Shown here in pieces: positions 7,165 through 12,804 of a DNA stretch of 64,000 nucleotides (positions are counted from its first letter, which is position 1; each line of letters opens with the position of its first letter). The notes under the pieces were generated by a model. The model searched no databases. It was given only the letters and a program-made list of their open reading frames with translations, and was not told where the DNA came from. Origin of the DNA: Methylophaga thalassica MP (GTDB lineage: Bacteria; Pseudomonadota; Gammaproteobacteria; Nitrosococcales; Methylophagaceae); the NCBI RefSeq assembly GCF_000214595.1, contig NZ_AFIG01000001.1, forward strand, positions 1,096,382 to 1,160,381, read 5' to 3'. A program made the translations under genes and the position numbers.

Positions 7165-7797
7165 TTAATAACCTCTCAATTGCAAGATGTAGCTATGCTG
7201 CGAACACTTGCGATAGATAAAAAGGGAAATAAAAATAGGCGAGGAACATAAACTGTTCTGAGCGCTATCATGCCATAAAGGTATGAAAGTGGTAAGTCAT
7301 ATTCTCTTTTTCAACAGGTTGCCTTGTGACAATGACATCCAGTGTAAATAAGGATGAAGGATATTGCATATGAGTTAGGCTGAGTTTAGCTTAGCGGTTA
7401 ATAATGATTAGATAAGTAAAACTGCCACAAAATAATGAAAAGAACGGCACTAATAATTAAACTGATATCGATAATGACTGACAGTATTTTTATTCTCAAA
7501 CAATGTTGCCATAAAGGCGGTCGACAACAGTAATTACGGGGACAATACTAATACAACGACAATTAATGAGAACTGAGAGTGAGTTGTTGGTTAGGTTATG
7601 CGGATGATTGACCAGAATTGATGGTTTTTAAACAGTCTTGTATAAATTGAACAAAAAGGGGTGATTGACTGCCATCAGTGCCTTTGTCTATTTAAACCTT
7701 TTCCGGTGAAAAATGCTTATTCAGCTCTTATTCGAGAGGCTAAATCATCAATTTTATATAACGACTGAAATTAAGTTCATTAAACAAGGAAGAGAAA
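7165..7797. other. 633-base intergenic region, no convincing gene
   Basis: This AT-rich stretch between divergent rnk and the DUF2157 operon holds only short frames. A hydrophobic minus-strand frame ending at 7398 (LRIKILSVIIDISLIISAVL and on) has no usable start or ribosome site. The region probably carries promoters for both flanking units. I cannot identify operators or an RNA structure in it. Confidence 0.5.
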
Positions 7798-10327: not shown

Positions 10328-11386
10328 CTAGACATCGCGTTTACGTAATTTCTGATACAGCGCTGTTAACAAGGCTTCGGTGTCGTTCCAGCCCATGCAG
10401 GCATCGGTGATAGATTGACCATATATAGGTTGATCTGAATCATTTTGTTTACCCGCTTCAATATAGCTTTCCAGCATTAGCCCTAATATGCCGCTGTTAC
10501 CAGCAAGATGTTGATCAACCACATGGTGGGCTATTTCCATTTGGCGTTCATATTGTTTTAGTGAGTTGTCATGGCTACAGTCAATCAGTACTTTTTCGTG
10601 ACAGTCATTGGCTGACAGTTGACTAAGCGCATGATGTATTGAGTCAGCGTCATAATTTGTCAGCCCTTGTCCTCCACGCAAGATAAGGTGGGTGTCAGGG
10701 TTGCCTCGGGTATTAATAATACTGATTTGTCCGTCATCATCGATACCAAGTGTATGGTGTCCGCGCGATGAAGCATGCATGGCATTGATCGCACTGCTTA
10801 TCCGGCCATCGGTGCTGTTTTTGATACCTACCGGGCAGGGCAGATGACTAACTAGTTCACGATGAGGTTGAGACTCTGATGTACGTGCACCTATTGCTGC
10901 CCAGCTGATAAGGTCATCCAGGTAACTCATCACCAGAGGATGCAGTGCTTCGCTAGCCAGTGGTAAGCCTAACGCTGACAATTGCAGTAATACCTGTCTT
11001 GAACGGTGTAAACCTAAAGCCATGTTGCCACGACCGTCTCTTAACGAATCGTAGGCAAGTCCCTTCCAACCATGGGTTGTTCGTGGCTTTTCCACGTAAG
11101 AACGCATCACAATCAGCAACTTATCATCCACTTGCCTGGCAAGTTTTGCCAGTCGTTTTCCATAATCTAAAGCAGCCGCTTCATCATCAATCGAGCATGG
11201 ACCAACAATAACCATGAAGCGATTATCATGACCATTTAATAGCCTAACGATCTGCATCCGTTGTTGCTGAATTTGTGATGATAACTGAGTGTTTAGTGGC
11301 AAAGTGTCTCTGAGTTGCCTGGGGGTAGGCAATTTCAACTCATCTGAAGCTAACTGATGTTGTTGACGCTGAATGGTTGAGGTCAT
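10328..11386 (-). CDS. aroF: 3-deoxy-7-phosphoheptulonate synthase (DAHP synthase, class I)
   Basis: A 352-residue enzyme that condenses phosphoenolpyruvate and erythrose 4-phosphate, the first step of the shikimate pathway. Seen motifs: VGPCSID (metal-binding Cys), VMRSYVEKPRTTHGWKGL (PEP site), IGARTSESQPHRE, GIKN, LRGGQG, IDCSHDN (metal His), LMLESY (metal Glu) and SITDACMGW (metal Asp). It resembles AroF slightly more than AroG (GLPLASEAL, then GNPD), but several family-conserved positions differ (GARTSES for GARTTES), so isozyme naming is tentative. AAGGAG precedes the ATG. The 5' region holds an aromatic leader peptide and a terminator, implying control by transcription attenuation. Confidence 0.93.
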   Translation of the reverse strand: MTSTIQRQQHQLASDELKLPTPRQLRDTLPLNTQLSSQIQQQRMQIVRLLNGHDNRFMVIVGPCSIDDEAAALDYGKRLAKLARQVDDKLLIVMRSYVEKPRTTHGWKGLAYDSLRDGRGNMALGLHRSRQVLLQLSALGLPLASEALHPLVMSYLDDLISWAAIGARTSESQPHRELVSHLPCPVGIKNSTDGRISSAINAMHASSRGHHTLGIDDDGQISIINTRGNPDTHLILRGGQGLTNYDADSIHHALSQLSANDCHEKVLIDCSHDNSLKQYERQMEIAHHVVDQHLAGNSGILGLMLESYIEAGKQNDSDQPIYGQSITDACMGWNDTEALLTALYQKLRKRDV

Positions 11387-11456
11387 GAGATGTGGCTCCT
11401 TAAACAGTGGAGACCGGACTGAGTCAGAATAGGCATAGCAAATACTCTCTACATAT

Positions 11457-11493
11457 AAAAAAACCCCGGTGGACTGACTGACCATTCGGGGTT
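11457..11493 (-). terminator. intrinsic terminator in the DAHP synthase leader (attenuator)
   Basis: Read on the minus strand, AACCCCG (11493-11487) pairs with CGGGGTT (11468-11462); TGG and CCA can extend the stem inside, and seven T follow. It lies about 70 bases before the DAHP synthase start, on the same strand and after the leader peptide, not at a gene end, which marks it as an attenuator. Confidence 0.88.
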
Positions 11494-11498
11494 CTTAT

Positions 11499-11558
11499 GG
11501 TAGTCAGCGAATGCCGGACTACCTTGAACTATTAATTAAGTACTATAGGTGAGCCGGC
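11499..11558 (-). promoter_or_regulatory. competing RNA stems of the aromatic attenuator
   Basis: Minus-strand RNA shows three mutually exclusive pairings. B-C: 11558-11548 (GCCGGCTCACC) with 11523-11513 (GGTAGTCCGGC). C-D: GGTAGTC (11523-11517) with GACTACC (11505-11499), seven perfect pairs. D-E: CTGACTACC (11507-11499) with GGTCAGTCAG (11483-11474) inside the terminator loop, one bulge. Inferred logic: a ribosome stalled on the aromatic codons leaves B free, B-C forms, D is released to pair with E and the terminator is blocked. A ribosome at the leader stop covers B, C-D forms and transcription ends. Pairings were found by eye, without energies. Confidence 0.65.
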
Positions 11559-11668
11559 TTCTGGCTAAAAAAATAGCCATAAGCAAACCACCAAAACATA
11601 ACAACGCTATCTACCAGAGGCAGATATTGCCGAATTTGATTTGAAGCAAAGGTTGTTTGTGAGTTCAT
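11543..11668 (-). CDS. aromatic leader peptide of the DAHP synthase gene
   Basis: A 41-codon frame from ATG at 11668 to TAG at 11543. Its end reads MFWWFAYGYFFSQKPAHL: eight of ten codons at 11596-11567 are Phe, Trp or Tyr, including tandem TGG TGG and TTT TTT. This is the hallmark of attenuation leader peptides such as those of trp and pheA, here covering all three end products of the pathway that DAHP synthase opens. The stop sits just inside the first competing RNA stem. The ribosome site is weak, and an internal ATG (codon 24, 11599) could be the real start and would keep all control codons. The upstream gene ends at 11737 on the same strand; whether a separate promoter exists is unclear. 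Confidence 0.82.
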   Translation of the reverse strand: MNSQTTFASNQIRQYLPLVDSVVMFWWFAYGYFFSQKPAHL

Positions 11669-11736
11669 GAGTTGAATTCTAGGCTATCAAATCGATTTTG
11701 AAAACCTCTTGTCCTTATTAATTATTGACTGTGAGT

Positions 11737-12804
11737 TTAATGACACCACGGACAGGCAAGGGGTTCACCGATAAAAAGGCCTTCTCCAGGTTGCTGTACG
11801 GATTTCCAATAGGCTTCTATTAAGCTATCACCACCAACATAGCTTGGGATGAGAATTTGTGCATTAGGAAATTTTTGTGGGTAGTTGCAAGGTTCAATAA
11901 CGGTGCCATAGCTCCCTGTCGCTCCTGCCTCAAGCCAGCGAAAGGCTTTCATCTGACCTTGACTGCTAATGCCTGCGCCGCCGGTAGAAGTAAGATGATC
12001 AGCAATAGCGCCCGGGAGATAATGATTGCTTTTGATATCAGGTACCTGTGTGTAGCCGGTCAGATAAAACAAAATATTGTTTTTATTCTTAATACTGGTG
12101 CCCTGTGATCGAAGATGATCATCAACATAATGAATTTGTAATCCGTTTTGTTCTGGCCAGATATCAGCAAGTTTCTTGAACATCCGCCAGCGCGTGCTTC
12201 GTTGAACATCCTGAGTTCGAACTAAATAGGCATCTCCATGTGGCTGGCTATTGTCAGCTTTCACCCCTCTGTCGATCAGTTCTTTAACTTCGTCAAATCG
12301 AGGACCAGTCAACATCATAGTCAATCGAATGGTATCGCTTTGCCACAGTTGATGAGACTTTGCATTAAAAAAAGGACTGTTAGCTGTCATATGGCAACCT
12401 GATATGTGGCTTTTATTGTGACTGCAATATTTTTCGTCAAAGCCTAAGCTAAATGCACTGGTGATAGACATACAGCCAACACGATACGGAGCATGCCAGG
12501 TCAGCAGTAACACTTTTATCTGGTCAGTTAAATACGGTTTAATTTGTTGTTGAATATCGGCGAATTGGCTGGGACTTATCGTGCTATTGTTTGCTGTGCT
12601 TAGTTTTATGCCGACAAGTTGTGACTTCGGTACAGCACGCTTTTGGAGATAATAATCAGCAATCTTTTTCGACAGAGAATCATGTTGTTTGAATAAAACA
12701 AGCACATTTTTCCCTGTGAGTTGTTTTACCTGGTCAGCAGAACAGGGTAGAACCATCACAAAAACTGAAACTGTAAGAAAGAGAAGTTTTAATATTGATG
12801 ACAA
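11737..12804 (-). CDS. TIGR03790-type exported protein
   Basis: A 355-residue protein starting with a Sec-type signal peptide (LKLLFLTVSVFVMVLPCSA). The mature part begins with VLVLFKQHDSLSKKIADYYL and the phrase RAVPKSQLVGIKL, and later has LTGPRFDEVKELIDRGV and the closing GEGLFIGEPLACPW. These are features I associate with the TIGR03790 family, exported proteins of unknown function often found in bacteria with elaborate envelopes. It ends in a CPWC pair two residues before the stop. The only in-frame start is TTG at 12804, without a clear ribosome site. No terminator is visible between its stop and the leader peptide downstream. Family call is from memory of motifs. Confidence 0.7.
   Translation of the reverse strand: MSSILKLLFLTVSVFVMVLPCSADQVKQLTGKNVLVLFKQHDSLSKKIADYYLQKRAVPKSQLVGIKLSTANNSTISPSQFADIQQQIKPYLTDQIKVLLLTWHAPYRVGCMSITSAFSLGFDEKYCSHNKSHISGCHMTANSPFFNAKSHQLWQSDTIRLTMMLTGPRFDEVKELIDRGVKADNSQPHGDAYLVRTQDVQRSTRWRMFKKLADIWPEQNGLQIHYVDDHLRSQGTSIKNKNNILFYLTGYTQVPDIKSNHYLPGAIADHLTSTGGAGISSQGQMKAFRWLEAGATGSYGTVIEPCNYPQKFPNAQILIPSYVGGDSLIEAYWKSVQQPGEGLFIGEPLACPWCH

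Follow-up and report, generated by a model that had tools for sequence, protein, structure and literature searches.

The locus described here raises the question of whether one short leader peptide, placed ahead of the gene for DAHP synthase (3-deoxy-7-phosphoheptulonate synthase), could report the supply of phenylalanine, tyrosine and tryptophan together. It lies in a stretch of 64,000 nucleotides from Methylophaga thalassica MP (contig NZ_AFIG01000001.1), hereafter the window, and a first-pass annotation of the letters alone had proposed an attenuator sensing all three amino acids before this gene. The aromatic run and the stems found in relatives support that proposal, while the sensing of each amino acid is a step that we infer. 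The element is very probably a ribosome-mediated transcription attenuator that couples the expression of DAHP synthase to the charging of three tRNAs. The coordinates of the features are collected in Table 1.

Table 1. Features of the candidate attenuator and its surroundings in the window.
Feature	Position	Strand	Evidence
Promoter-like site: -35 TTTTCA, 17 nt, -10 TAGAAT	11676..11704	-	consensus match, 9/12
Leader peptide ORF, 41 codons, MNSQTTFASNQIRQYLPLVDSVVMFWWFAYGYFFSQKPAHL	11668-11543	-	ORF translation; kept in Methylophaga relatives
Control codons F W W F A Y G Y F F (segment 0, codons 25-34)	11596-11567	-	8/10 aromatic
Whole attenuator by covariance model R1	11458..11596	-	80.5 bits, E 4.8e-19
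Segment 1, GCCGGCTCACC, final sense codons; partner segment 2	11548..11558	-	duplex -15.8 kcal/mol
Segment 2, GGTAGTCCGGC; partner segment 1 or 3	11513..11523	-	duplex test, simulation
Segment 3, GCTGACTACCA; partner segment 2 (termination) or 4 (antiterminator)	11498..11508	-	duplex test, RNAalifold, simulation
Segment 4, TGGTCAGTCAG, within terminator 5' half and loop; partner segment 3	11474..11484	-	duplex test, simulation
Intrinsic terminator hairpin, AAGAACCCCG..CGGGGTTTTT, -16.5 kcal/mol	11459..11496	-	folding and comparison of 109 terminators
17-codon ORF in the gap between terminator and DAHP synthase	11436..11383	-	stop overlaps DAHP synthase ATG (TCATGA)
DAHP synthase, gene taken as regulated	10328..11386	-	TIGR00034, NF009395

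The minus-strand leader of 41 codons containing FWWFAYGYFF, with eight of ten residues aromatic, had been read from the sequence and was confirmed by translation and by a shuffle test. No other ORF of 8-60 amino acids on either strand of the window reaches 8/10 aromatic residues, and no ORF of this kind appeared in 100 shuffles of the window in two-base blocks. ORFs with at least 7/10 aromatic residues arose 15 times in total over the 100 shuffles. The window also holds ORFs at 7249 and 34002, both on the minus strand, with 7/10 aromatic residues each. The locus has two of the parts expected of an attenuator, namely a short upstream ORF rich in codons for the products and an intrinsic terminator between that ORF and the gene.

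A contig search gave one relative, from Methylophaga sulfidovorans (L003), whose DAHP synthase is 87% identical to that of the window and which bears out the Methylophaga context that had been assumed; whole-genome searches were then made. Among 57 genomes of the window's family a DAHP synthase match was found in 55, and in only five is the enzyme of the window's type: the window's own genome, a species mate, and three others (G053, 87% identical; G036, 65%; G037, 67%). The leader is present in all five. The first and last aromatic codons of the run switch between F and Y among these genomes and are always aromatic. Comparison with related genomes had been named as the check on the proposal, and in that comparison the peptide, the aromatic run and the stems are all kept, the stems with compensatory changes. 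In G037 (locus L007) the leader-type DAHP synthase is broken over several frames; no such damage is apparent in its leader, its stems or its terminator.

Leaders of the same plan also stand outside the genus, in families f184, f154, f143, f205 and f145, ahead of DAHP synthases that share 43-60% identity with that of the window. The f184 leaders read FFWWFGYGFYFSQ and similar, many of them with a run resembling that of the window, FFWWFGYGFYF, and the leaders of the other families mostly contain [FY]GYWFS or GYWYWF. An ORF was counted as a leader when it held W together with F or Y, had 5/10 aromatic residues or a YWF, FYW or WFG motif, and lay at most 130 nt from a T-run. Applied to 208 loci, which are best matches (up to 30 per search) and yield counts that are not frequencies, the rule gave 115 distinct leaders, 86 loci without one and 7 identical to one already listed. 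Six of the 115 (L036, L040, L018, L025, L027 and L082), which differed in place or type, were removed by hand, and 109 were kept. F, W and Y all occur within the last 22 residues in 109/109 of these, the rule itself having required W and F or Y, and the exact string GYWF is found in 61/109. On inspection, ten of the 86 rule-negative loci have a leader as well (L048 and L073 being one place). Among the loci set aside, L036 and L040 (f16, genomes of 0.3-0.4 Mb) have small ORFs, VCGFYGNYYIQWKM and VCGFYAKYYIVWRT, before DAHP synthase, which are perhaps a relic of the leader in a reduced genome or else chance in AT-rich DNA.

The descent of the gene and its leader was examined with a midpoint-rooted protein tree of 71 rows chosen by hand from the 208 loci. 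The 38 leader-bearing enzymes form one group together with that of L036 (0.3 Mb genome, long branch), with support of 100/99, and the remaining 32 rows fall outside it. Among the loci examined the leader thus belongs to one DAHP synthase clade. As the L036 enzyme lies within this clade on its long branch, the ORF ahead of it may be a relic. Methylophaga is nested inside f184 (support 100/97 and 98/91), which suggests that gene and leader entered Methylophaga together, and its leaders share descent with the f184 elements. A covariance model, R1, was built from 18 f184 sequences and no Methylophaga sequence. In the 57 family genomes it scored 73-81 bits in exactly the five that have the window-type DAHP synthase; elsewhere its best scores were 26-31 bits, from four further genomes and from a second match in G053.

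Downstream of the peptide come two strong hairpins, first GGTAGTC..GACTACC and then the terminator, CCCCG..CGGGG. An intrinsic terminator with seven T about 70 bases ahead of the gene had been claimed, and the seven T stand at 11463-11457 (minus strand) with a gap of 70 bases. A simple terminator scan did not list the window's terminator, presumably because it allowed loops of only 3-8. The terminators of the window and of M. sulfidovorans are the weakest of the 109 compared (-16.5 kcal/mol against a mean of -24.5 kcal/mol). The terminator is conserved in its place, lying 71-101 nt past the leader stop in 109/109 leaders.

The gene starting at 11386 matches TIGR00034 (aroFGH) with 402 bits (cut-off 173) and NF009395 with 461 bits, and a Shine-Dalgarno-like AAGGAG precedes it at 11401-11396 (minus strand). 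The 17-codon ORF in the gap is present, with variable residues, in all four of the Methylophaga sequences printed, and none was seen in the six f184 sequences printed; its overlap with the start of DAHP synthase makes translational coupling possible. The window's genome encodes a second DAHP synthase, 46% identical to the first, and no such leader was found ahead of it. The gene upstream of the leader (11737-12804, minus strand) matches TIGR03790 with 215 bits, and in L003, L006 and L007 the stretches upstream of the leader hold the C-terminus of a similar protein at their end.

The folding energy of the leader RNA is -72 kcal/mol, compared with -47.2 kcal/mol for shuffles (z -5.9; 0/200), and the RNA 3' of the peptide taken alone gives z -4.8 against shuffles. 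For comparison between loci the RNA was divided into segments, of which 1 comprises the last sense codons, 2 and 3 the arms of the middle hairpin, 4 the 5' half of the terminator and its loop, and 5 the terminator's 3' half. The first-pass annotation had described three competing pairings. The competition stands and the count does not, as there are four mutually exclusive pairings (1:2, 2:3, 3:4 and 4:5) plus a hairpin that involves the control codons. The duplex energies of cognate and non-cognate segments were compared in 21 representatives less than 80% identical, with 5000 permutations; L104, one of the 109 leaders, was excluded since its segmentation failed. Cognate duplexes were better for 1:2 (z -7.0), 2:3 (z -6.5), 3:4 (z -5.3) and 4:5 (z -7.8), each with 0/5000, and the control pairings 1:3, 1:4, 2:4, 3:5 and 1:5 were non-specific (z +0.3 to +0.7; 3008-3830/5000). 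Kinship could inflate these scores, but it would inflate the controls equally. The tests of 2:3 and 4:5 are partly circular because the borders of segments 2, 3, 4 and 5 were set by folding, and those of 1:2 and 3:4 are the more independent. Within the window alone, non-cognate duplexes were as good in 3/20 cases for 1:2, 7/20 for 2:3, 5/20 for 3:4 and 14/20 for 4:5; the pairing evidence is that of the set of 21 sequences and not of the window by itself.

The position of helix 1:2 relative to the aromatic run is also kept. It starts 2-10 nt past the last aromatic codon in 20/21 representatives and 8 nt past it in the window. RNAalifold, applied to 15 Methylophaga and f184 sequences, gave 28 pairs in three hairpins with 8 pairs changed on both sides, and at two places where the 2:3 stem of the window has T-A most f184 sequences have C-G. 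The mutually exclusive pairings of terminator and antiterminator that characterize an attenuator are therefore kept by covariation. Covariation is seen for the control-codon hairpin 0:1 among the Methylophaga and f184 sequences; over all 21 representatives this hairpin was unsupported as a general feature (z -1.6; 264/5000).

The effect of ribosome position was simulated. For a ribosome whose A site held any one of the window's eight aromatic codons, on RNA that extended as far as segment 4, the model gave 7-11 expected pairs of 1:2 and 7-10 of 3:4. When the ribosome was placed at the stop codon, 2:3 had 12.2 expected pairs and 3:4 had 0.4, and 2:3 also wins without a ribosome. At equilibrium the complete RNA of the window retained the terminator in every ribosome position tried, so that the switch must be kinetic. 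Over the 21 representatives stalling lowered the mean of 2:3 from 9.0 to 4.0 pairs, with a loss of at least 3 in 13/21, and raised the mean of 3:4 from 5.3 to 7.7 pairs, with a gain of at least 3 in only 8.

From these comparisons we infer a scheme of translation, stalling, response to each amino acid and kinetic antitermination. The leader AUG would probably lie at the transcription start or next to it. With Phe-, Tyr- and Trp-tRNA all charged, the ribosome would reach the stop codon and cover segment 1, leaving 2 to pair with 3 and 4 free, and the terminator would form and transcription stop. If any one aromatic tRNA were short, the ribosome would wait at one of the eight codons just upstream of segment 1; 1:2 would then pair, 3:4 would pair before segment 5 is made, and with the terminator blocked the gene would be transcribed. 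The lack of translation would lead to termination, as amino acid plenty would. In the E. coli trp leader, which has four segments, stalling frees 2:3 as the antiterminator, whereas 2:3 would be the termination state in the window. The E. coli his leader, in which seven His codons sense one amino acid, has six segments; A:B, C:D and E:F terminate and B:C and D:E antiterminate. This order matches that of the window, with 0:1, 2:3 and 4:5 against 1:2 and 3:4, but the 0:1 hairpin of a his-like scheme is the one that the 21 representatives do not support.

The proposed start of transcription is drawn from the promoter-like site. Two such sites were found in 800 bases, with 1.3 expected by chance. 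Because the -10 box in the window ends 7 nt upstream of the leader ATG, transcription may begin at the AUG or close beside it. In 33/33 Methylophaga and f184 leaders a -10 box ends 6-7 nt before an in-frame ATG, against a background of 94/6880 ATGs in the loci (the 33 leaders included). No Shine-Dalgarno-like site was seen ahead of the window's leader ATG, and 3/33 of these leaders have one before the in-frame ATG. The translation of the window's leader is probably leaderless. A leaderless start in all families was rejected, as the promoter lies at that distance in just 8/75 GYWF-type leaders; a Shine-Dalgarno-like site precedes 51/75 of them.

Codon choice within the leaders is strongly biased. 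In the Methylophaga and f184 leaders TTT accounts for 125/140 Phe codons and TAT for 70/75 Tyr codons, against 30/119 and 62/211, respectively, in their DAHP synthases. In the GYWF strings counted, TTT is used in 58/59 and TAT in 57/59. The preference may serve to provide slower codons or may serve RNA structure.

It had been stated that classical leaders sense one amino acid. This is too broad, since the thr (Thr, Ile) and ilvGMEDA (Ile, Val, Leu) leaders of E. coli are multivalent. The E. coli leaders named trpL and pheL (PMC11802643, as far as its available text goes) resemble the scheme proposed for the window in that stalling at product codons chooses between terminator and antiterminator, but they sense one amino acid each. 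The same annotation regarded the leader as an alternative to the TyrR and TrpR control known from E. coli. This fits the window's genome, where neither TrpR nor a TyrR-type DNA-binding domain (HTH) was found with searches that were each positive in E. coli, 1/14 control genomes.

Attenuation of a DAHP synthase gene has been described in C. glutamicum, where aroR-aroF has a Phe-Tyr-Phe leader (PMC4046766, PMC11802643). According to the second paper, AroR responds to Phe but does not respond to Tyr. Both systems place an aromatic-codon leader before DAHP synthase, with attenuation, but the C. glutamicum leader has no Trp and belongs to another phylum, and the likeness follows the papers' description only. 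In the uORFC-13-1 motif of Acholeplasma, an ORF with one or more Phe codons precedes an apparent terminator, and aroF comes next (PMC8632094); in the available sections only Phe is named, and the phylum and the structure differ from those of the window. In 2009 aroF and aroH of Shewanella were listed as predicted RNA-regulated genes, with aroF noted as an 'attenuator sensing tyr-tRNA' on the authority of a paper of 1980 on E. coli (PMC2659441, in part). Attenuation of E. coli aroF also appears as a hypothesis (PMC8632094); it concerns one amino acid, and the accessible text describes no leader of the window's plan. Among the titles and abstract openings surveyed in the open-licence literature, none concerned a DAHP synthase leader covering Phe, Tyr and Trp together, which is weak evidence of absence. 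What would be new here is a single leader for three aromatic amino acids, in one enzyme clade and in many genomes; ribosome-mediated attenuation itself was already known.

The leader may also be related to an RNA family. The whole window was searched with Rfam, and positions 11380-11760 were searched up to E 10. No family was found in the whole window, and around the leader there were three chance-level matches, none of them to P15. In 5/15 relatives, RF00627 (P15, 'Pseudomonas sRNA P15') matches at the leader's place before DAHP synthase with 70-126 bits. The window does not reach the gathering score (70 bits), with no P15 match up to E 10 in 11380-11760, and for this reason is not filed under P15. 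When the P15 consensus is translated it gives Y-Y-F-G-Y-W-L-S-H-W-R-A-stop, followed by a stem and a terminator, which is the end of such a leader. P15 shares with the window's leader its place and a comparable leader end, but Rfam types it as a gene (sRNA), the parts of the entry seen carry no leader peptide or attenuator logic, and the window is not a match. R1 scored 29.9 bits at the P15 locus L067 and 28.7 at L188, while at L063 (23.8), L065 (23.1) and L035 (20.2) it did no better than opposite-strand matches (<=23.6 bits). The DAHP synthases of the window and of the P15 loci lie in one clade. A class-wide search found P15 at the cut-off in 1/342 genomes, more weakly in 5, and in 0/14 control genomes. 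Four of the six matches precede DAHP synthase; for G068 and G324 (28-30 bits, other families) there was no DAHP synthase in the stretch examined. To serve as an attenuator leader is a likely function of P15. No leader peptide in P15 was found in the open-licence literature searched, which is weak evidence as subscription papers lie mostly outside it.

A trans-acting sRNA with its own terminator, standing before DAHP synthase by accident and with an incidental ORF, is what the Rfam classification of P15 at this place in 5/15 relatives would imply. We find this scarcely credible. The element occurs in 38/39 tree rows of one DAHP synthase clade, on the coding strand ahead of the gene and with its ORF kept, and its alternative pairings would be needless for an sRNA. 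In addition, the available text of a 2008 paper doubts a trans-acting role for P15 and suggests a riboswitch from synteny with a TPP riboswitch (PMC2527527). The peptide could instead act through its own sequence, with the nascent chain (GYWFS or YGYFFSQKP) causing arrest when a free amino acid, or some small molecule of another kind, is present. TnaC is an example of nascent-chain arrest in response to a small molecule. Each group of leaders has its own conserved residues past the aromatic run (SQKPAHL, SRSRA, SHWRA), and GYWF is kept in 61/109 leaders; both would suit an arrest peptide. However, complementarity persists although the C-terminal residues vary from group to group, and these residues occupy the same place as segment 1, so that RNA pairing explains their conservation. 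The extreme synonymous choice (TTT 58/59, TAT 57/59) is likewise needless for an effect of the peptide, and we consider arrest by the nascent chain improbable.

A narrower form of attenuation deserves more weight. The leader might in practice answer to one or two amino acids, the other aromatic codons being bystanders or padding, much as AroR of C. glutamicum with its Phe-Tyr-Phe is reported, in the text available, as responsive to Phe and not Tyr (PMC11802643). In the window and in many f184 leaders the two Trp codons precede the end of the run by 7 and 8 codons, with Phe and Tyr lying at that end, and F and Y interchange at several positions. Against this, Trp is present in 109/109 leaders (though the rule required it) and in the ten loci that the rule or the segmentation had missed and that were checked by eye. 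GYWF, which puts Tyr, Trp and Phe codons just before segment 1, is found in 61/109 leaders, and in the simulation of the window a stall at W26 or W27 is as effective in setting the switch as one at Y or F. A response restricted in this way is possible but rather unlikely, and coupling to all three tRNAs is the reading that we prefer.

A second small ORF, located by a search for the W-R-F motif, lies in the gap between terminator and DAHP synthase at 42/108 leader loci (L035, L072, L124, L164, L165 and others). Its codons are UGG-CGA-UUU, with Arg CGA and Phe TTT in 42/42, and Tyr codons often precede them. For this region RNAalifold gave 14 pairs in 12 f154 sequences, 3 of them changed on both sides, and the loop GCCACC of its hairpin complements a downstream GGTGGC. 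No such second ORF was found in the window. Where present, the ORF could act as a further attenuator, perhaps a translational one.

Taken together, these observations would fit a wider picture in which the leader is an OR gate for three tRNAs, an ancient and portable unit belonging to one enzyme clade that entered Methylophaga with its gene, P15 is its terminated product and the W-R-F ORF, where present, is a second aromatic checkpoint; our confidence in this combination is evenly divided. If the OR gate is real, a shortage of Phe, Tyr or Trp would each open the entry step of the shikimate pathway. One RNA switch would then be seen to read all three end products in an organism where TrpR and TyrR were not found, and P15, an orphan RNA family, would gain a testable function. 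The leader would also offer a simple genetic system in which to study the integration of several tRNA signals by attenuation, and to learn whether the switch is tuned by leaderless translation and by slow codons such as UUU and UAU.
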